Origin: Microscillaceae bacterium
GTDB lineage: Bacteria; Bacteroidota; Bacteroidia; Cytophagales; Microscillaceae
Reading direction: 5' to 3'
Assembly: GCA_011390205.1 (NCBI GenBank)
Contig: JAABSX010000023.1
Location: 1 to 60,414 of the forward strand
Length of the DNA stretch: 60,414 nucleotides
Shown piece after piece: positions 6,394-37,309 of the stretch. The notes beneath the pieces are model-generated. The model ran no database searches, was not told where the DNA came from, and worked only from the letters and a program-made list of their open reading frames with translations. The stretch's first letter is position 1. The number at the start of each line of letters is the position of its first letter. The translations under genes were made by a program, and so were the position numbers.

Positions 6394-6436
6394 AATATCA
6401 AGCAAAACCCTTAAATTGCAGACTTATTCTGAAACC

Positions 6437-7474
6437 ATGAAGCAGCTTTTTCTTTTCGTTTTTCTGGGCTTGGTGGCAGCATCTGCCAGTTTTGCACAAG
6501 TAGGAGGGCGCAATACTTTCGAGTTTGTGCGTGTGCCTGTAGATGCCTTTGGGGCGAGCCTTGGCGGAGTCAATATCAGCACAGGCAGCCATGAGGTGAA
6601 TGCTTTTTGGCGAAACCCTGCCCTGATGCAAGACTCCATCAACAGGCATGCCGCACTCAGCTATGTGCCTTGGCATGCAGACATTCATAATTTTACATTG
6701 GCATACATTCAGCCTTTTCAAAAAATAGGGGCTTTAGCTTTTGGGCTTCACCTCGTAAACTATGGCACACTGCAAGAGACAGACCCCTCGGGGCAAATAC
6801 TGGGAGAATTTAAGGCACAAGATTTTAATTTCAATGTGGGCTATGCCATTCAGCAAGATAATTTTAGCTTTGGGGTCAATGCCAAGCTGCTCGGCTCACA
6901 GATAGATGTCTATAGTGCCTATGCCCTTGCCCTTGATTTGGGGCTGGTTTTTCGGCATCCTCTAAAAGATTTTACCTTTGGGCTGGCAGTCAAAAATATC
7001 GGCTTCGGGATGAGCAAATACACCCCTGATACTCAGCTGAATATGCCTCTAGATGTGCAGATAGGCACAAGCTTCAGACCTGAGCAAATGCCTTTTCGTT
7101 TTTCTGTGAGCTTGCACCACCTCTATCAGTTTGACATTACCTATTTAGACCCCAACCGACAGACACAGTTAGATGCCAACGGAACGCCCGTGCGTGAAGA
7201 AAAAACTTTTTTTGACAAGGCAGCTCGGCATTTTGTGCTGGGGGGAGAGCTTTTACTTTCTTCTAAATTTCAAGTCAATTTAGGTTATAATCACCTTATC
7301 AACCGTGAAATGAAAATAGCCAATCAAGGAGGTATGCGAGGGCTCTCTTTTGGTTTTCAGCTACGCACCCAGAAGTTTGCCTTTGGTTTTGGAAGAGGAA
7401 CTTACCAAATAGGAACAGGACGCAGCTTCTTTACGCTCAGAGGGGATTTGGGGCAAGTAATGAAGCGTAAGTGA
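6437..7474 (+). CDS. porQ: Type IX secretion system protein PorQ
   Basis: This is an outer-membrane beta-barrel-like protein of the type IX secretion machinery. I chose the ATG at 6437 over the upstream frame start because it gives a clean signal peptide (MKQLFLFVFLGLVAASASFAQ) and a 345-aa protein. The mature N-terminus GGRNTFEFVRVPVDAFGASLGG and the FWRNPALM motif are characteristic of PorQ. The rest alternates aromatic beta strands (for example FGLHLVNYG, FNFNVGYAI, FAFGFGRGTY). PorQ works in the PorV/PorQ group of proteins that handle type IX cargo at the cell surface. It lies close behind eboE, but no other por or gld core genes are in the window. Confidence 0.88.
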   Translation: MKQLFLFVFLGLVAASASFAQVGGRNTFEFVRVPVDAFGASLGGVNISTGSHEVNAFWRNPALMQDSINRHAALSYVPWHADIHNFTLAYIQPFQKIGALAFGLHLVNYGTLQETDPSGQILGEFKAQDFNFNVGYAIQQDNFSFGVNAKLLGSQIDVYSAYALALDLGLVFRHPLKDFTFGLAVKNIGFGMSKYTPDTQLNMPLDVQIGTSFRPEQMPFRFSVSLHHLYQFDITYLDPNRQTQLDANGTPVREEKTFFDKAARHFVLGGELLLSSKFQVNLGYNHLINREMKIANQGGMRGLSFGFQLRTQKFAFGFGRGTYQIGTGRSFFTLRGDLGQVMKRK

Positions 7475-7626: not shown

Positions 7627-10515
7627 ATGACGGAAGAATCACTCAACAATTTTGTATCTTATTGCCAAAAACACCTCAAAGGCGATGAAAAAGGAGAGGC
7701 CCAAATATTTCTCGAGCATTTTTTTGTGGCTATGGGGCATCCTGAAGGAGTAAAAGGAGCAGGGGCAACTCTAGAAGAACGCATCAAGAGCCAAGACAAA
7801 CGCAGCACCCGATTTGCTGACCTCGTCTGGAAGCCCCGTGTATTGATAGAAATGAAAAAAAGAGGTGAAAACCTGGCAGTGCATTATCAGCAGGCTTTCC
7901 AATACTGGATAGATTTAGTGCCTGACAGACCGCAGTATGTGGTGCTTTGTAACTTTGATGAGTTTTGGATTTATGATTTTAACAAACTAGTTTACGAGCC
8001 ACTCGATAAGGTAGCACTCACAGACCTTCCCCAAAAGAGAGCTTCTTTTTCTTTCTTATATCCCAAATTTAAGCACCCTGTCTTCAAAACAGGCGAAGAC
8101 ATTACCAAAGACATTGCCCAAAAAATAGCTTATATCTTCAAATCGCTCACTACAAGAAAAATTGAAAGAATAGATGCTTTGCGGTATTGCTTGCAGTGCA
8201 TCGTTACGATGTTTGCCGAAGATGTAGGTTTGCTTCCTAATCAGGTATTCACTCGCTTGCTCCAAGATTGTATAGACCGCAAAGAAAGTAGCTATGACCT
8301 CATAGGAGGGCTTTTTCAAGAGATGAACCGACTAGGAACCGCCCCCGCAGGACGCTACGAAGGGGTAGAGTACTTTAATGGAGGGCTCTTCGAAAAGATT
8401 ATCCCCATAGAACTGACGCATTTTGAAATAGAAATGCTTTTTGATGCCTCCAAACGAAACTGGTTTAAGGTCAATCCTGCTATCTTTGGCACTATCTTCC
8501 AGACTGCCCTCGAAAAAGGCGAAAGACACGTGCTAGGGGCGCACTATACCGCTGAAATTGACATCAAAAAAATCGTCTTGCCTTGTATTGTGCAGCCTTG
8601 GCAAGCACAAATAGACCAAGCCCAAACCCTAGACGAACACCTCGCCCTGCTCACCGCCCTGAGCCAATACACAGTGCTAGACCCCTCTTGTGGCAGTGGC
8701 AACTTCCTCTTTGTGGCTTTCAAAGAAATGAAACTCTTAGAAGCGCAAATCCTTGACCGCATCAGAAACCGATTTACCAAACCTGCCGAAGGTAAAAAAT
8801 TCTTCCAATTCCTCAATGAATATACCTACGTCAATACCGCACAGTTTTATGGCTACGACATCAAACCCTTTGCCGTAGAACTTGCCAAAGTTACGCTCAT
8901 GGTCGCCAAAGAACTCTCTTACATAGAGTACAAAGAAAGTTTTGATAGCAAATTCAAACCTCTACCCCTAGATAACCTCGACGACAATATCCTCTGCATT
9001 GATGCCCTCCTAGATGACCAAGGCAATGCCCGACAATGGCACAAAGTCGACGTCATTATCGGAAATCCGCCTTTTCAGGCGAGAAGCAAAATGCTCAGTG
9101 AATTTGGGAAAGAATACCTCGAGGGGCTATGGAAAGCATATCCTGATTTGAATAGATACGGTGATTTTTGTACACTTTGGTTTTATAAAGCACATCAAAC
9201 ACTCAAGCCCAATCACTTTGCTGGTTTAGTAGGTACTAACAGCATTAGAGAAAATAACAGCCGAGAAAACAGTTTGGATTATATCGTAAACAATGGAGGA
9301 ACTATCTTTAATGCTGTTTCTTCTCAAAATTGGGAAGGTGAAGCAGCCGTTTTTGTGTCAATAGTGAATTGGGTAAAGGGCAATTATCTCAATGATAAAA
9401 TATTATTTGTAATCAATGAAGAGGGAGAGTTGAAGCCACACACACGTACATTTATCAATAGTAGTCTTAGCTTACATGTAGATGTGAGTACTGCTGCTAA
9501 ACTTTCTTGCAATAAACTTAGAAAATACTGTTCACAAGGGCTAAAGCACGGACATGAAGGATTTTTATTAACTCCTGCTCAAGCCAAAACCTACCTAAAA
9601 GCCGATAAAAAAAATGCAGATGTATTAAAGCCTTATTTGATTGGACGTGAGCTAGTTGCCAGCTTTGCAAGCCAACCTAAAAGATTTGTCATAGATTTTT
9701 CTCAACTTGATGTCATTCAAACCGCTGGCTACAAAGAATTATTCAAACATATCCAGAAAACTGTTTATTTTGATAGAAAAGCACTGTCGGATAAACAACA
9801 ACAAGAAAATCAAAAACTATTGGCTAAAAACCCTAAAATAAAAGTAGATAAAAGCTATATCAATTACTACAAAACTTGGTGGCAATTGATTGGAAAAAAA
9901 ACAGAACTGATAAAGGAACTGTCATCAATGAAAAAATATATTGCTTGCTCAAGAGTATCCCTAAGACCTATTTTTGAATTTATTTCTACTGAAATTTCTC
10001 CAAATGACCAACTAATGGTCTTCACTTTTGAAGATGACTATAGTTTTGGGATTTTACAATCTTGTTATCACTGGGAATGGTGGAAAGCAAAATGCTCTAC
10101 GCTGAAAGGAGATTATCGCTATACTGCTGATACCGTTTGGTACACCTTCCCTTTCCCTCAAAATCCAAGCGAAAAGCAAGTAAAGGCAGTCGCAGACGCA
10201 GCCCTGACACTCAGAAAAGCACGTACAGCTACTATGCAAAAAAATCAATGGAGTTTGAGAAACATGTATGGCATACTAGATTTATACTCAGACAGTAATC
10301 CCATCAAAAAATTACACCAAGCTCTAGACAAAGCTGTAAGAGAAGCTTATGGCTTTGCTCCGAACAGTGATATACTCACGGAACTCTTATTACTCAATCA
10401 AAGCGTACATCAGCGAGAGGTGCAGGGTTTGTCAGTGCAAGCTCCAGGTTTGCCTGATTTCATCAAAAATCCACAGGACTATGTAAGTGCCGATTGTGTA
10501 AAGTGGGAGGGGTGA
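7627..10515 (+). CDS. Type IIL/MmeI-like restriction-modification enzyme
   Basis: One 962-aa polypeptide carries cutting, methylation and specificity. The N-terminal nuclease shows D65 and E75-M-K77 (PD-(D/E)XK pattern). The adenine-N6 methyltransferase has SAM motif I DPSCGSGNF near 353-361 and catalytic motif IV GNPPF at 479-483. Residues of about 600-830 form the target recognition region (LLTPAQAKTYL, PYLIGREL, WWQLIGKK), and a helical tail follows. No separate methylase, specificity or nuclease gene is needed or seen. The methyl-transfer half shares the base use of neighbouring genes, whereas about 9090-10120 is much more AT-rich, as expected if the recognition segment was exchanged. The recognised sequence cannot be deduced. 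Confidence 0.9.
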   Translation: MTEESLNNFVSYCQKHLKGDEKGEAQIFLEHFFVAMGHPEGVKGAGATLEERIKSQDKRSTRFADLVWKPRVLIEMKKRGENLAVHYQQAFQYWIDLVPDRPQYVVLCNFDEFWIYDFNKLVYEPLDKVALTDLPQKRASFSFLYPKFKHPVFKTGEDITKDIAQKIAYIFKSLTTRKIERIDALRYCLQCIVTMFAEDVGLLPNQVFTRLLQDCIDRKESSYDLIGGLFQEMNRLGTAPAGRYEGVEYFNGGLFEKIIPIELTHFEIEMLFDASKRNWFKVNPAIFGTIFQTALEKGERHVLGAHYTAEIDIKKIVLPCIVQPWQAQIDQAQTLDEHLALLTALSQYTVLDPSCGSGNFLFVAFKEMKLLEAQILDRIRNRFTKPAEGKKFFQFLNEYTYVNTAQFYGYDIKPFAVELAKVTLMVAKELSYIEYKESFDSKFKPLPLDNLDDNILCIDALLDDQGNARQWHKVDVIIGNPPFQARSKMLSEFGKEYLEGLWKAYPDLNRYGDFCTLWFYKAHQTLKPNHFAGLVGTNSIRENNSRENSLDYIVNNGGTIFNAVSSQNWEGEAAVFVSIVNWVKGNYLNDKILFVINEEGELKPHTRTFINSSLSLHVDVSTAAKLSCNKLRKYCSQGLKHGHEGFLLTPAQAKTYLKADKKNADVLKPYLIGRELVASFASQPKRFVIDFSQLDVIQTAGYKELFKHIQKTVYFDRKALSDKQQQENQKLLAKNPKIKVDKSYINYYKTWWQLIGKKTELIKELSSMKKYIACSRVSLRPIFEFISTEISPNDQLMVFTFEDDYSFGILQSCYHWEWWKAKCSTLKGDYRYTADTVWYTFPFPQNPSEKQVKAVADAALTLRKARTATMQKNQWSLRNMYGILDLYSDSNPIKKLHQALDKAVREAYGFAPNSDILTELLLLNQSVHQREVQGLSVQAPGLPDFIKNPQDYVSADCVKWEG

Positions 10516-18552: not shown

Positions 18553-19980
18553 ATGTATAAAAACATATCCAAACTTCTAAAAACAAGTATTTTATTGCTT
18601 ACATTCTGTTGCTTTGCCCCTCAGAATGGATTCTCACAGTGCAATGTAATCACCAACACTGACCAAGACGGGGATGGCGTATCAGACATCAGTGGGCAAG
18701 ACAAATGCCCCTCTACACTCAGCCAAATAGAAGGGCAGCGTGCTACAGTCATCAATGAGTATTCGGGGCAAGAAGTAGTGGTGAGATTCCCCAAAAAACT
18801 CAAAGATTATATCTGCCAAGACCGTGTGCCGCTAGATGCCGCCAAAATAGAACTGCTCAACCAACAAGCAAAAATTAGAAGAGAACAAAAAAGAGCAGAC
18901 GAAAAATATGGCAAATATGCCGATATGAAAAGCAGCGAAAGAAAAGCCAAAATAGAAGAACTTGAACTTGTCTTGGTCGATTTTAAAACCAAAATAGACT
19001 CCGTACAAACACTCCTCAACCAAGTAAACCCCAACTCTTACGTAGAGTTCGTGAGCAGTCTTTTAGATTCCAGAGGAGCTGTAATCCAAGAAAATGTGAA
19101 ATTTAAAATCCGAATAGAAGTAAATCAGTTTGGATGCCTCCCCGATGATGACAATGACGGCTCACCCAATATCGTAGATTTATGCCCTGGCGAAGTAGGC
19201 ACTATCGAGGCCGCTGGCTGCCCCGACCGTGACAAAGACGGCATCCCCGACAAAGAAGACCGCTGCCCCGACACACCTGGCTCCGTAGAAAGCTTTGGTT
19301 GCCCTGATAGAGATGGAGATGGTGTGCCTGATTCCGAAGACGAATGCCCCGATACACCAGGAGTCATTAAACTCGCTGGCTGCCCCGACCGTGATAAAGA
19401 CGGCATCCCTGACAAAGATGATGAATGCCCCGATACCCCTGGCTCTGTGGAAGCTAAAGGCTGCCCCGACCGTGATAAAGACGGCATCCCTGACAAAGAC
19501 GATGAATGCCCTGATACTCCTGGCCCCGCAGAGACCAAAGGTTGCCCCGACCGTGATAAAGATGGTGTGCTAGACAAAGACGATGAATGCCCAGATGTGC
19601 CTGGCCCCGTAGAAAACAAAGGTTGCCCCAAAATCTTAGAAAAAGCAAGTAGGGTATTATTTGAAACAGGTAAATCCATCATCAAAACAGTTTCTTACCC
19701 ACTTTTGGATGAGCTGGTGGCACTTCTTAAGGAGTATCCTGATGCCAACATTACGCTTGCAGGGCATACAGACAGCGAAGGAGAAGAAGCCGATAACCTG
19801 CAGCTATCCATAGACCGGGCCGCCGCCGTAAAAACTTATTTGATAGAAAAAGGAATCTCTGAAGAGCGCATTAGTAGCACAGGTTTTGGTGAATCTAAGC
19901 CAATTGATAATAACGGCACTGCCGAAGGACGTGCAAGAAACCGCAGGGTAGAGATGAAATTAAGTAATAAGCAGAAGTAA
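18553..19980 (+). CDS. OmpA-family protein with thrombospondin type-3 repeats
   Basis: A 475-aa outer-membrane-to-peptidoglycan anchor. A signal peptide is followed by a calcium-repeat start (DQDGDGVSD), then a coiled-coil stretch (about 95-165, rich in Lys/Glu). Six TSP3 repeats of 27 residues, PDRDKDGIPDKDDECPDTPG, follow at about 196-358 with Asp-rich Ca sites and one Cys pair per unit. The C-terminal OmpA/MotB domain has the peptidoglycan-binding NITLAGHTDSEGEEADN and LSIDRAAAVKTYL, ending GRARNRRVEM. It lacks an N-terminal barrel. A terminator shared with the convergent gene lies directly after it. Confidence 0.93.
   Translation: MYKNISKLLKTSILLLTFCCFAPQNGFSQCNVITNTDQDGDGVSDISGQDKCPSTLSQIEGQRATVINEYSGQEVVVRFPKKLKDYICQDRVPLDAAKIELLNQQAKIRREQKRADEKYGKYADMKSSERKAKIEELELVLVDFKTKIDSVQTLLNQVNPNSYVEFVSSLLDSRGAVIQENVKFKIRIEVNQFGCLPDDDNDGSPNIVDLCPGEVGTIEAAGCPDRDKDGIPDKEDRCPDTPGSVESFGCPDRDGDGVPDSEDECPDTPGVIKLAGCPDRDKDGIPDKDDECPDTPGSVEAKGCPDRDKDGIPDKDDECPDTPGPAETKGCPDRDKDGVLDKDDECPDVPGPVENKGCPKILEKASRVLFETGKSIIKTVSYPLLDELVALLKEYPDANITLAGHTDSEGEEADNLQLSIDRAAAVKTYLIEKGISEERISSTGFGESKPIDNNGTAEGRARNRRVEMKLSNKQK
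19213..19625 (+). repeat. 81-bp tandem TSP3-coding repeats
   Basis: Units start at regular 81-bp steps (for example near 19381 and 19462) and are nearly identical at DNA level in the last three copies. Each encodes one 27-residue calcium-binding TSP3 unit. Confidence 0.8.
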
Positions 19981-20010
19981 TTTAAAATATATTTTACGCA
20001 GCAGCATCTC

Positions 20011-20048
20011 AAAAAACCTCCAAGATTTAGATTTCTTGGAGGTTTTTT
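20011..20048. terminator. Bidirectional terminator between convergent genes
   Basis: Perfect 15-bp arms (20011-20025 and 20034-20048), with an A run at one end and a T run at the other, lie between the stops of the OmpA gene and the SecA-like gene. Confidence 0.88.
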
Positions 20049-20062
20049 TATCTGAATGCTGG

Positions 20063-20689
20063 TTAGTGCATATTTCTATCAATCCATTCTTTCTGAGATT
20101 TGGCATTACTTTCTTGCAATAATTTACTTTGAATCTTCTTCTGAGCCTTGATGATGGCACTATCTACCATAGAATGGCTTATCATCTCTTGTTCAGATAT
20201 TCCCATGGTTTGTAAAACTTTGATGATACGCTCCCCTCCAAAATGCTCAAAGAAAGGCTCTTTCAGTGCTGTATAAAAAGCAATCTCAGATTCAGGGAAA
20301 TGCTCAAATATTTGCTGCAAAAGTGTATCTTCTCGCTCAAAAGCAGGATAATGCTCCGTAAAAATAAAACGCAAAGGTCTATCAGAGAAAAAAGAAACTA
20401 AGCTGCCGAGCTTATGCTCAAAATCAGAGACCTTGCCCAAAAACAAAGAAACACTAGAAGACAGCAAAGCCTCCTTACCTAACTCTTGAGTGTTTAGCCT
20501 TGTGCCACTTAGCTTTTCTTTGAGGGTATGATGGGCTTCTTCAAAAAAACTTAATAAAATTACGGGCTGTCCTGTCTCATCAAGTTTCTGCAATGCTTGT
20601 AACAAAAACGCATACTTGTCTTGCGCTTCTATCCAAATAAAATTCTGGTAAACTACCTTAGGCACTTTTTTCTTAAAAAAATTAAACAT
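20063..20689 (-). CDS. SecA NBD2-like protein lacking helicase motifs
   Basis: A 208-aa cytosolic protein. I read its layout as the second nucleotide-binding domain of SecA plus the start of the scaffold helix: EAQDKYAFLLQAL...GQPVILLSFFEEAHHTL (SecA: the GQPVLVGT strand and following helix), EREDTLLQQIFEHFPES (where SecA has the R-x-D-x-Q-L-R-G-R-x-G-R motif), AFYTALKEPFFEHFGGERIIKVLQTMGI, then HSMVDSAIIKAQKKIQ (SecA: the T-K-x-I-x-x-A-Q-x-K-V-E region). All arginine-finger and DEAD-box residues are replaced, so it cannot be an ATPase. No ATPase half is present. It may bind translocon or secretion substrates as an adaptor, but that is inference. It lies 50 bases after the 140-aa unknown and probably shares its transcript. 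Confidence 0.65.
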   Translation of the reverse strand: MFNFFKKKVPKVVYQNFIWIEAQDKYAFLLQALQKLDETGQPVILLSFFEEAHHTLKEKLSGTRLNTQELGKEALLSSSVSLFLGKVSDFEHKLGSLVSFFSDRPLRFIFTEHYPAFEREDTLLQQIFEHFPESEIAFYTALKEPFFEHFGGERIIKVLQTMGISEQEMISHSMVDSAIIKAQKKIQSKLLQESNAKSQKEWIDRNMH

Positions 20690-20739: not shown

Positions 20740-21162
20740 TCACGCACCATTGAGAACAGCACCGATTTTAAATTTGGCTCGGATAGAATAAAAAAGTGTA
20801 TTGGTAAACTCCTCAAAATAAACTTCTATCAGTTCATAATCTGAGGGAGAGATTTTTACATAATTTTTTAAAAATAAAAAATCCGAACAAACCTCCACTT
20901 CTATGCAGGGGACTTCTAAAAACTGATTCAGTTTTTGGTGTATTAGGTCAAAGGTCATTTTATCGATGATAGAGCAGCCAAAGCGGTGATAATCCATATC
21001 AGGCATAAATTCATGCAGGTACTGAAGTGTGATTTTCTCCACGACTTTGTGTAGTGCCAAGGGAGGATAGTTGAGTCCTTTGATGAGCTGACTCGCCAGC
21101 CCCAGACTTTGCCATGAGCCTTGCTCTATCAAATATGTAATGTTTTGAGTAGTCTGACTCAT
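20740..21162 (-). CDS. Unknown protein, 140 aa
   Basis: I do not recognise this family. The protein has no signal peptide or TM segment. A helical N-terminal half (TYLIEQGSWQSLGLASQLIKGLNYPPLAL) is followed by alternating strands ending FYSIRAKFKIGAVLNGA, so it is probably a small soluble alpha/beta domain. The frame, start ATG and base composition are consistent with a real gene. It precedes the SecA-like gene by 50 bases on the same strand, which suggests that they act together. Confidence 0.6.
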   Translation of the reverse strand: MSQTTQNITYLIEQGSWQSLGLASQLIKGLNYPPLALHKVVEKITLQYLHEFMPDMDYHRFGCSIIDKMTFDLIHQKLNQFLEVPCIEVEVCSDFLFLKNYVKISPSDYELIEVYFEEFTNTLFYSIRAKFKIGAVLNGA

Positions 21163-26588: not shown

Positions 26589-27017
26589 TTATTTCTCTAT
26601 GTGTTTCTCAAAGCCTTCTATCAAATTACGGAAGGCCTCAGGAATGGGCTTGGGGCGGCGTGTGTGTAGGTCTGTATTGACCGAAATGGTTTCCCCTGTG
26701 ATAAGTAAGTCATCTTCTCCACGTCTGATTTCCCACAAAAAACGAAAACTACTATTACCCAATCGTGCACATCTGACATATATCCTGAGTTCGTCGTCAT
26801 AGCGTGCAGATTGGTGATATTCAATGCTTACTTTTTTGACGAATATATCACAGCCCAGTTCAGTAATCCCTTCTGGAAAGACAACTCCAAGATTGCGGTA
26901 ATACTCCGTAATAGCGACATCAAAATAGGTCAAATAATGGCCATTAAATACTATAGATTGTGGGTCGACCTCTGCCCAACGAACCCTTAATGGGTGAAAA
27001 AAAAGGTATTTTTCCAT
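26589..27017 (-). CDS. Acyl-CoA thioesterase, hotdog fold (YbgC/4HBT type)
   Basis: A 142-aa hotdog protein. The 4-hydroxybenzoyl-CoA thioesterase signature is clear: VRWAEVDPQSIVFNGHYLTYFD with the catalytic Asp in the loop before the long helix, followed by VSIEYHQSARYDDELRIYV. It should hydrolyse acyl-CoA thioesters in the cytosol; the chain length is unknown. It ends only five bases from the end of the convergent 25978 gene, with no terminator between. Confidence 0.9.
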   Translation of the reverse strand: MEKYLFFHPLRVRWAEVDPQSIVFNGHYLTYFDVAITEYYRNLGVVFPEGITELGCDIFVKKVSIEYHQSARYDDELRIYVRCARLGNSSFRFLWEIRRGEDDLLITGETISVNTDLHTRRPKPIPEAFRNLIEGFEKHIEK

Positions 27018-35431: not shown

Positions 35432-37309
35432 ATGATGCGTAACTATTCTATATATATCCTGTGCTTGCTTGGTTTATGGGCTTGCAGTTCACAAAAAAAA
35501 GAGACTCCTAGCATCGGATTTTTAGATGCCTTTGAAGATGCCACCATTGCACAGGCGAGAGTGGGCTTTATGGATGCTCTCCGTGAGCGAGGCTGGAGCG
35601 AAGAAGACAACACACTTCGAGTGCTTTATAGAAATGCCCAAGGCGATATTCCTACATTGCTGCAAAGCACAGATTATTTCATCTCTGAGCAAGTAACCCT
35701 CATTGCAGCCTGCCCTACAGGTGCTATGATTACGGCTTTGCAGCGGACTTCTGAGATTCCTGTGTGCATGATGGTAGGGCCTGACCCCGCCTTGGTCAAT
35801 CTAAGAGACAAACAAGGCAATGCTCCTAAAAATCTTTTTGGTACGTATGATGACCTTGCTTACATTGCTACTTCGGTGGGGATGCTGCGTGAGCTATTGC
35901 CCAATGCCCAAAAACTAGGCGTAATTTACAATCAGGGTGAGCCTCAATCTCAAAATGCCTACCAAGTTATCTCCCAAAAAGCCAAGGAAGTGGGCTTGGA
36001 CTTAGTGGCAAAGCCCGTGAGCAATTCTTCGGACACACAGCTTGTAGTAGAGTCATTGCTCAATGAAGGCATTGATGCTTTTTTTGCGATGCCTGATAAT
36101 GTCGTTTTTTCCTCTTTTGAAGTCATTTTTAAATCTTGCCAGCAAGCAAATGTGCCCATTTTCACCAGTGAAGAAGGGCTGGTAGAGCGTGGTTCATTGG
36201 CAGCTTATGGGGCAGATATGTATATGTGGGGCTACCAAGCAGGTGAGCAAGCAGCAGCTTACCTCGAAAATCCTGAAAAAGGTCTGCCCGCACTTTCTCA
36301 GACGAAATTTCACAAAAAAATCTACAATCCTGAAATAGCCAAACAATTTAAAGTGGAGGTAGATAGCACTTTTGAAGAAATCGGTAAATCCAAGGTAAAA
36401 GCCAAGATAGGTAAACAAAAAGCCTCTGGAAATTCATTCAATAGTTTTTATCTCTCTGCTCTGATGCTGGGCTTGGGCTATGCTGCGATGGGCTTGGGGA
36501 TTTTTATCTCTATGCGTATTTTTGACATTCCTGATATTACCACAGACGGGAGTTATACCCTTGGTGGAGCATTGACAGCTATTTTATTGCTTCAGGGAGT
36601 GGCAATGCCTTTGATATTGGTGGCAGTCATAGCTGCGGGTGTATTGGCTGGAGTAGCTACGGGTTTGATTCATACTAAGTTGAGAATCAATGCTTTGCTA
36701 GCAGGTATTTTGGTTATGACGGCTCTGTATTCTATTAATCTAGAGATGATGGGCAAATCAAACCTTCCGCTGATAGACACTGCCAATCTTTTGTATGTTT
36801 TTGAGCATAGCCTTGGGGCTGTATTTTCTCCCCTATTGGTGCTTTCGGGGCTTATTTTGTTTATTTGCGTGGCTTTGGGCTATTTGCTTAGGACAGATTT
36901 TGGGCTGGCGATGCGTGCCACAGGCAATTCTGAAACCATGGTGCGTGCCAATGGAGTCAATACTGACCGAATGAAAGTCATAGGGCTAGGGCTTGCCAAT
37001 GCCCTGACTGCTTTGAGTGGTTTTTTGATAGTACAATACCAAGGCTTCGCAGATATTAATATGGGCATTGGGATTGTGATTATCGGGCTGGGCTCGGTGA
37101 TGATAGGCGAAACATTTAACAACCTACTGGGCTTTCAGCACATTCAGTATCGGTTATTGGGGGTGGTATTGGGTACAATTGCTTTTAGGTTAATCTTGGC
37201 TTTGAGCTTGGCTTTGGGTGTGCCGCCTAATCTGCTGAAGCTCGTAACGGCTGTGCTGGTGCTGCTTGTGGTGGCATTGCCCCAAATAAACGGAAAGAGA
37301 AATCTGTAA
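35432..37309 (+). CDS. ABC transporter: substrate-binding domain fused to permease
   Basis: A 625-aa fusion. The N-terminus is a lipoprotein (LLGLWAC-SSQ, Cys near 17). Residues 24-325 are an ABC_sub_bind (PF04392-type) binding protein: SIGFLDAFEDATIAQARVGF, AACPTGAMITAL and NVVFSSFEVIFKSCQQANVPIFTS. Residues 335-625 are a BPD_transp_2 permease with about eight TM helices and the ATPase-contact loop LAMRATGNSETMVRANGVNTDRMK. The likely substrate group is tryptophan- or other amino-acid-like ligands, inferred from relatives. No ATPase gene follows in the window; downstream is a terminator and 380 bases of gap. Confidence 0.85.
   Translation: MMRNYSIYILCLLGLWACSSQKKETPSIGFLDAFEDATIAQARVGFMDALRERGWSEEDNTLRVLYRNAQGDIPTLLQSTDYFISEQVTLIAACPTGAMITALQRTSEIPVCMMVGPDPALVNLRDKQGNAPKNLFGTYDDLAYIATSVGMLRELLPNAQKLGVIYNQGEPQSQNAYQVISQKAKEVGLDLVAKPVSNSSDTQLVVESLLNEGIDAFFAMPDNVVFSSFEVIFKSCQQANVPIFTSEEGLVERGSLAAYGADMYMWGYQAGEQAAAYLENPEKGLPALSQTKFHKKIYNPEIAKQFKVEVDSTFEEIGKSKVKAKIGKQKASGNSFNSFYLSALMLGLGYAAMGLGIFISMRIFDIPDITTDGSYTLGGALTAILLLQGVAMPLILVAVIAAGVLAGVATGLIHTKLRINALLAGILVMTALYSINLEMMGKSNLPLIDTANLLYVFEHSLGAVFSPLLVLSGLILFICVALGYLLRTDFGLAMRATGNSETMVRANGVNTDRMKVIGLGLANALTALSGFLIVQYQGFADINMGIGIVIIGLGSVMIGETFNNLLGFQHIQYRLLGVVLGTIAFRLILALSLALGVPPNLLKLVTAVLVLLVVALPQINGKRNL

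Follow-up and report, generated by a model that had tools for sequence, protein, structure and literature searches.

SecA is among the most conserved of bacterial motors and is usually taken to be a single chain. A second SecA-type protein may stand beside it, as in the case of SecA2, which is a near full-length ATPase (a 771-residue chain in the Foldseek match obtained here). Escherichia coli also possesses a small SecA isoform that lacks the last ~70 residues and occurs beside full SecA; it is reported to be a natural form made from secA itself that keeps the motor (PMC13178939). Artificial shortening has been employed in the E. coli SecA-N68 constructs and their deletion derivatives, all of which keep NBD1. 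SecA-N68 was found to self-associate via the extreme N-terminus and the segment following NBD2 (modelled as residues 591-609), while SecA-N68 without both elements was a monomer (PMC5603524). The same study states that deletion of 14 N-terminal residues weakened the SecA-N95 dimer and abolished complementation, and mentions another report in which a 9-residue N-terminal deletion was without effect. Furthermore, the lipid-induced change of SecA in response to anionic lipids requires the SecA N-terminus, as stated in a further report (PMC3745498).

The gene reported here is a natural one, and its product corresponds to one SecA lobe. It was found in a 60,414-nucleotide stretch of DNA from a Microscillaceae bacterium (contig JAABSX010000023.1), hereafter the window, where an ORF on the minus strand runs from an ATG at 20689 to a stop at 20063 and encodes 208 amino acids (Table 1). 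A search of this genome with the 208-residue query returned the query itself and one SecA frame, which is a complete SecA of 1129 residues. The short protein shares with SecA (NF009536/TIGR00963) the fold, the order of elements and the residues of the joint and scaffold helix; however, it is devoid of NBD1, the preprotein cross-linking domain (PPXD), the helical wing, the two-helix finger and the C-terminal tail, has lost motifs V and VI, and has gained an EHYP signature and a C-terminal tryptophan-bearing helix. Like SecA2 it is a second SecA-type protein beside SecA and adopts the NBD2 fold (VIA-align Z 15.2 against Clostridioides difficile SecA2), but it is a single lobe without ATP motifs. 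In contrast to the SecA-N68 constructs it lacks NBD1, and its anatomy is unrelated to that of the small E. coli isoform. Among the papers listed by searches of open-licence PMC full text, none described a stand-alone SecA NBD2 protein in its title or the start of its abstract.

Table 1. Positions of the short gene, of the segments of its product and of nearby features (window coordinates; residues numbered on the 208-residue protein).
Feature	Residues	Position	Strand	Basis
Stand-alone SecA-NBD2-like protein gene	1-208	20063..20689	-	ORF, SecA profiles, hhalign, AlphaFold2 model, Foldseek
N-terminal tail MFNFFKKK	1-8	20666..20689	-	family pattern, low pLDDT, likeness to SecA start
NBD2 (RecA-like lobe 2) without ATP motifs	14-142	20264..20650	-	hhalign, VIA-align
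EHYP, family signature replacing SecA ERHE	112-115	20345..20356	-	alignment counts
Counterpart of SecA motif VI (QLRGRxGRQ), without its arginines	123-131	20297..20323	-	alignment counts
Joint segment, equivalent to E. coli SecA 591-609 (EDALMRIFASDRVSGMMRK)	143-163	20201..20263	-	alignment counts; PMC5603524
Scaffold-helix start (SMVDSAIIKAQKKIQSK)	173-189	20123..20173	-	alignment counts; helix 173-189 in model
Family-specific C-terminal helix S..EW(F)xxN	198-206	20072..20098	-	alignment counts, model
Hairpin with T-runs on both strands, between the short gene and the convergent OmpA-like gene		20008..20052	.	folding
140-aa ORF, upstream of the short gene with a 50 bp gap, same strand		20740..21162	-	ORF
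Thioesterase-like small ORF (also at L037, L040, L043, L126 and L127)		26589-27017	-	by eye

The single 208-residue sequence is by itself enough to reach SecA, and the link is strongest where NBD2 ends and the scaffold helix begins, since NCBIfam models and phmmer both lead there. The NCBIfam SecA models NF009536, NF009538 and TIGR00963 matched with E-values of 1.8e-9, 2.9e-9 and 1.7e-7, respectively, with the strongest part at residues 137-189, while phmmer against PDB sequences retrieved the SecA of Thermotoga (residues 18-188, E 8e-4) and that of Thermus (residues 136-189, E 3e-4). These matches fall far short of the curated thresholds (36.2 bits against a cut-off of 1493 for NF009536, and 29.9 against 800 for TIGR00963), and the Pfam domain P-loop_SecA (PF21090) likewise matched at E 0.0027 and 17.8 bits, below its gathering cut-off of 27; judged by sequence, the protein passes the threshold of none of the Pfam or NCBIfam families tested. 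Among 17 family members, all matched these three SecA models (best 1.1e-15) and 11 matched P-loop_SecA at E <= 0.01 (best 2.8e-9); of the SecA2 models, TIGR04397 was matched by six members (best 4.6e-5) and TIGR03714 by one (0.0013). Finally, hhalign of the 17-member profile to the NBD2 of eight SecAs from the same order gave a probability of 99.5% and an E-value of 4.4e-22 across 175 columns, spanning query columns 14-190. The homology thus covers SecA NBD2 and the opening turns of the scaffold helix. The original prediction had aligned the protein with this region from the sequence alone; the profile matches it called for were found, and the pieces it named occur in the order of the phmmer and hhalign alignments. 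We regard derivation from SecA NBD2 as practically certain.

Structure prediction leads to the same place. The window protein was modelled with AlphaFold2 (pLDDT 90.4, pTM 0.87), and when Foldseek compared this model with the PDB, ranks 1-32 were all SecA or SecA2 (best 3iqy, E 1.1e-7, TMq 0.66). VIA-align superposed model residues 3-194 on SecA 4ys0 with a Z of 17.1 and an rmsd of 4.2 over 189 aligned residues; non-SecA rows begin at rank 27 with a Z of 12.2, the general fold being common to both. The RecA2 lobes of DEAD/SF2 helicases are alike in general fold, but their scores (Z up to 12.2) lie below those of SecA, and sequence profiles place the short protein with SecA. The longest-branch member of the family (G321), modelled with its relatives (pLDDT 87.6), also retrieved SecA or SecA2 at ranks 1-27 (best E 9.5e-10). 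An unrelated fold, which had been named as the outcome that would overturn the SecA assignment, did not turn up, and it is rejected on the two models with their Foldseek matches.

The gene is far from confined to the window: it occurs in at least 29 genomes of 11 families, two of which lie outside the window's class. An initial search of 193 genomes of the order found at least 16 with a match in a short frame (<300 aa), the other matches listed being SecA-type frames of 479-1213 aa; 15 of these 16 carriers have a second match, and ten of those, among the matches listed, are frames of 1124-1163 aa. With the 17-member profile, the short gene was found in 21 of 390 order genomes at E <= 1e-27 (matches above threshold in nine other genomes were SecA frames). 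It was also found in eight of 395 class genomes, five of them outside the order (18 SecA rows stood above the 1e-23 threshold), and, among the matches listed, in at least seven of 395 phylum genomes. The samples overlap. Searches of plasmids and phages produced no match to the short protein, none of 70 stretches of viral contigs picked out by two short patterns was confirmed, and the BFVD structure rows were general helicases and similar proteins (best E 3.7e-4); there is therefore no sign of a viral or plasmid origin in these collections. The short proteins are thus a conserved family, patchily spread in Bacteroidota, and measure some 172-218 aa when counted from the start that was chosen.

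Within this family, the proteins diverge rapidly. Among four genomes, the six pairwise comparisons gave 31-37% identity for the short proteins and 74-85% for SecA NBD2, and end branches in the tree mostly measured 0.3-1.9 in the short family versus 0.01-0.22 in SecA. In this tree, the short proteins (25 rows) and the SecAs (21 rows) fall on opposite sides of a branch with support of 100/100; a near copy (G088), two frames lacking the N-terminus (G153 and G051) and a broken copy (G111) were left out, and relations within the short family are unsure because the tree carries long-branch warnings. Seven close pairs were taken for dN/dS; one had saturated dS and yielded no ratio, and the six with finite dS gave values of 0.04-0.23. 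The broken copy consists of two short frames (L046, 8187-8817), with intact genes in two genomes of the same genus (G025 and G056); the G153 frame is without the family N-terminal part, as is G051, which lies near a contig end. The remaining 26 of the 29 copies are open, possess the family N-terminus and share one architecture. The term "degenerate piece", used in the original prediction, is consequently misleading for a gene carried by 29 genomes in 11 families and under purifying selection in the close pairs tested. The family is SecA-derived, real and conserved.

Residue counts were taken from an alignment of 28 short proteins (the broken copy being excluded from all alignments) with 21 SecA NBD2s, these being what was left of 29 chosen loci after eight lacked a usable frame by motif pattern. 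The region of the former ATP site is heavily altered. The six SecA arginines of the TERHESRR/QLRGRxGRQ stretch are kept in 2/28, 4/28, 0/28, 0/28, 6/28 and 0/19 short proteins, respectively, those of motif VI accounting for 0/28, 6/28 and 0/19; the window protein has arginine at none of the six positions, which agrees with the earlier observation that the ATP-contact arginines are replaced. Columns of the GRGTDI stretch (motif V) are mostly changed or gapped. NBD1 with its Walker A and B motifs is absent altogether, as the 208-residue ORF aligns solely to NBD2 and the scaffold start, and the chain ends 19 residues past the scaffold-helix part. In the signature replacing ERHE, E is found in 26, H in 24, Y in 20 and P in all of the 28 members, E112 being as in SecA.

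The C-terminal part of the SecA match, on the other hand, is well kept. Nine joint and scaffold residues are identical to SecA in 24-28 of the 28 short proteins: F150 (27), G151 (24) and G163 (28) in the joint, E168 (27) and H172 (27), the latter just ahead of the scaffold helix, and I179 (25), A182 (24), Q183 (26) and K185 (24) in the helix. Other joint positions are looser, for example R154 (15/28), I155 (17/28) and M174 (18/28). Beyond the SecA-aligned part, which stops at residue 191-194, lies the family-specific helix (modelled at 199-206) with S198 in 26, W202 in 28 and N206 in 24 of 28 members; together with F49 (28/28), H113 (24/28) and P115 (28/28), these residues are fixed in the short proteins only. 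The N-terminal tail is short, phenylalanine-rich, hydrophobic and basic, and residues 1-10 are modelled with a pLDDT of 53. All patterns describing it were composed after the sequences had been seen: a loose one, which was also used for start choice, fits 26 of 28 members, and two anchored ones fit 23 and 24 of 28 members versus 3 and 5 of 327 neighbouring ORFs. SecA itself begins with a similarly hydrophobic and basic tail in the four genomes examined; in one of them (G129), SecA begins MFNFLTK and the short protein MFNFFKK.

Downstream of the short gene, a hairpin was spotted by eye and then folded on the minus strand (-20.7 kcal/mol, z -6.1, with 0 of 200 shuffles as good); a scan for consensus promoters and terminators gave little output and did not list it. 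It is likely a terminator common to the short gene and the convergent gene at 18553-19980 (+), whose product appears by eye to be OmpA-like with repeated DxDxDG-type calcium-binding stretches. No partner common to many loci was seen around the window gene and 28 other copies, most neighbours being unannotated. Those identified are household genes: Pfam recognised a histidine kinase, a thiolase, a radical SAM protein, a ferrochelatase and a thioesterase, and others were assigned by eye. None of the identified neighbours is a Sec component. A urocanate hydratase-like gene (by eye, ~670 aa) follows the short gene in four genomes from two families (L128-L131; f106 and f112), either adjoining it directly or within about 230 bp of it. 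The thioesterase-like small ORF turns up in six of the 29 fetched stretches, from three families, three of the six belonging to one genus and four to one family. Elsewhere in the window, 7627-10515 (+) encodes a 962-aa single-chain restriction-modification enzyme with Pfam MmeI N-terminal, spacer, methyltransferase and target-recognition domains, and 35432-37309 (+) joins an ABC substrate-binding domain (PF04392) to a branched-chain-type permease (PF02653) in one ORF, an unusual-looking fusion by Pfam. The product of 6416-7474 (+) has no Pfam match, and presumably resembles the type IX secretion protein PorQ.

As to function, with neither NBD1 nor motif VI the ATP site should be unable to close, and a motor role is therefore taken to be excluded by anatomy. 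The original prediction that a SecA fragment without the first ATPase half would be no translocation motor by itself fits the missing NBD1 and the lost arginines, and the protein very probably hydrolyses no ATP on its own. The role that it suggested, as a possible adaptor of the Sec machinery or a regulator, is compatible with these findings. We favor a reading in which the SecA lobe is a non-ATPase modulator that would act by binding, via SecA or its membrane site, at a rough probability of 0.4. That the modulator meets SecA or that site is less likely than not, and we give similar odds to an entirely new employment of the lobe. We propose a modulator because the SecA-like tail, joint and scaffold-helix start are kept, while in E. 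coli the extreme N-terminus and the segment following NBD2 mediate SecA-N68 association, and the N-terminus of SecA is required for its lipid response. Equivalents of both SecA-N68 association elements flank NBD2 in the short protein. The phenylalanine-rich basic tail would anchor the protein to the membrane and/or the SecA motor cleft, and the retained joint and scaffold-helix start would dock at the contact between SecA protomers, or where NBD2 meets its partners; docking might then alter how much SecA is dimeric, or how readily SecA reaches SecYEG. As a guess, the C-terminal tryptophan helix might shield the surface against which NBD1 lies in SecA. The chances that the protein binds the Sec machinery at all seem even, and binding to SecA itself by the tail, joint and scaffold route is more doubtful than that. 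In its full form, the proposal is that Bacteroidota have an undescribed and ancient Sec translocase regulator or subunit that is dispensable, an engine-less SecA pseudo-lobe that would have kept SecA's self-association elements and would adjust SecA by associating with it at the membrane; we put this forward tentatively, as less likely than not.

Several observations bear on how close such a partnership could be. SecA does not need the lobe, since the latter is patchy even within the order (21 of 390 genomes). A tight, essential partnership with SecA is made less likely by the rapid divergence, by the patchy spread and by the absence of Sec genes from the neighbours identified; divergence far above that of SecA would be unusual if the main surface had to track a slowly changing SecA. 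The tail comprises only about eight residues and could have arisen by convergence. Furthermore, the segment after NBD2 forms the unstructured end of SecA-N68 in E. coli but is predicted as helices in the model of the short protein, which counts against the parallel.

The same rapid divergence would be at home in another reading, in which the lobe was taken over for a non-export job, such as the binding of RNA, of nucleotide or of an unrelated helicase lobe. Only the fold would then be inherited, and the conserved F49/EHYP/W202 set would form a new site; the newly fixed residues, some at a former ATP motif (F49, H113 and P115), are in line with this, as are the varied household genes nearby. 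However, the residues in common with SecA cluster in the joint and scaffold helix, and the N-terminal tail is SecA-like. This reading is a serious possibility, if a doubtful one.

A less probable option is that the protein is an accessory of a Bacteroidota-specific envelope route, for example type IX secretion, for which SecA first delivers the cargo to the periplasm. SprA is a marker of type IX secretion, and it was present in all 38 genomes checked; its occurrence in 29 of 29 carriers accords with this option, but it does not discriminate, because the nine window-family genomes without the short gene all possess it too. In one genus the short gene follows a gene for an FGE-sulfatase-domain lipoprotein (L034, 9135-10331 (-); L038, 6589-7785 (+)), which we take to be GldJ-like and which would suit such a role. 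On balance we consider it improbable.

The original prediction had also placed the short gene in a two-gene unit with the 140-aa gene as a possible partner; such a unit could be a toxin-antitoxin-like or adaptor pair. The product of this ORF matched nothing in Pfam or NCBIfam up to E 10, and PADLOC matched neither protein. The close spacing on one strand does hold in the window, but in none of the five other genomes with both genes are they adjacent (they lie on different contigs in four and about 61 kb apart in one). Among the 38 genomes tested, the 140-aa gene is confined to the window's family: it occurs in six of the 29 carriers, all from that family, and no match was found in the 23 carriers outside it. 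Inside the family, it is present in 6/6 carriers versus 2/9 non-carriers (Fisher one-sided p 0.0056, uncorrected for relatedness). This distribution counts against a conserved unit, though the two may still act jointly, and such a pair is a very unlikely explanation of the short gene. Last, the gene could be a contig artefact or the functionless, decaying remnant of a secA duplicate; this would account for the one broken copy and the two without the family N-terminal part, but is ruled out for the family as a whole by the 26 open frames of one architecture, dN/dS well below 1 in the pairs tested and a single clade apart from the 21 sampled SecAs, leaving it a negligible chance.

A conserved natural single SecA lobe without ATP motifs, shared by 11 families, suggests that Sec control has a further layer, or that part of SecA has been put to a new use, neither of which appears in the literature searched. 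If the lobe binds SecA, its surface would mark the contact, and the protein would be a natural reagent for the role of SecA self-association.
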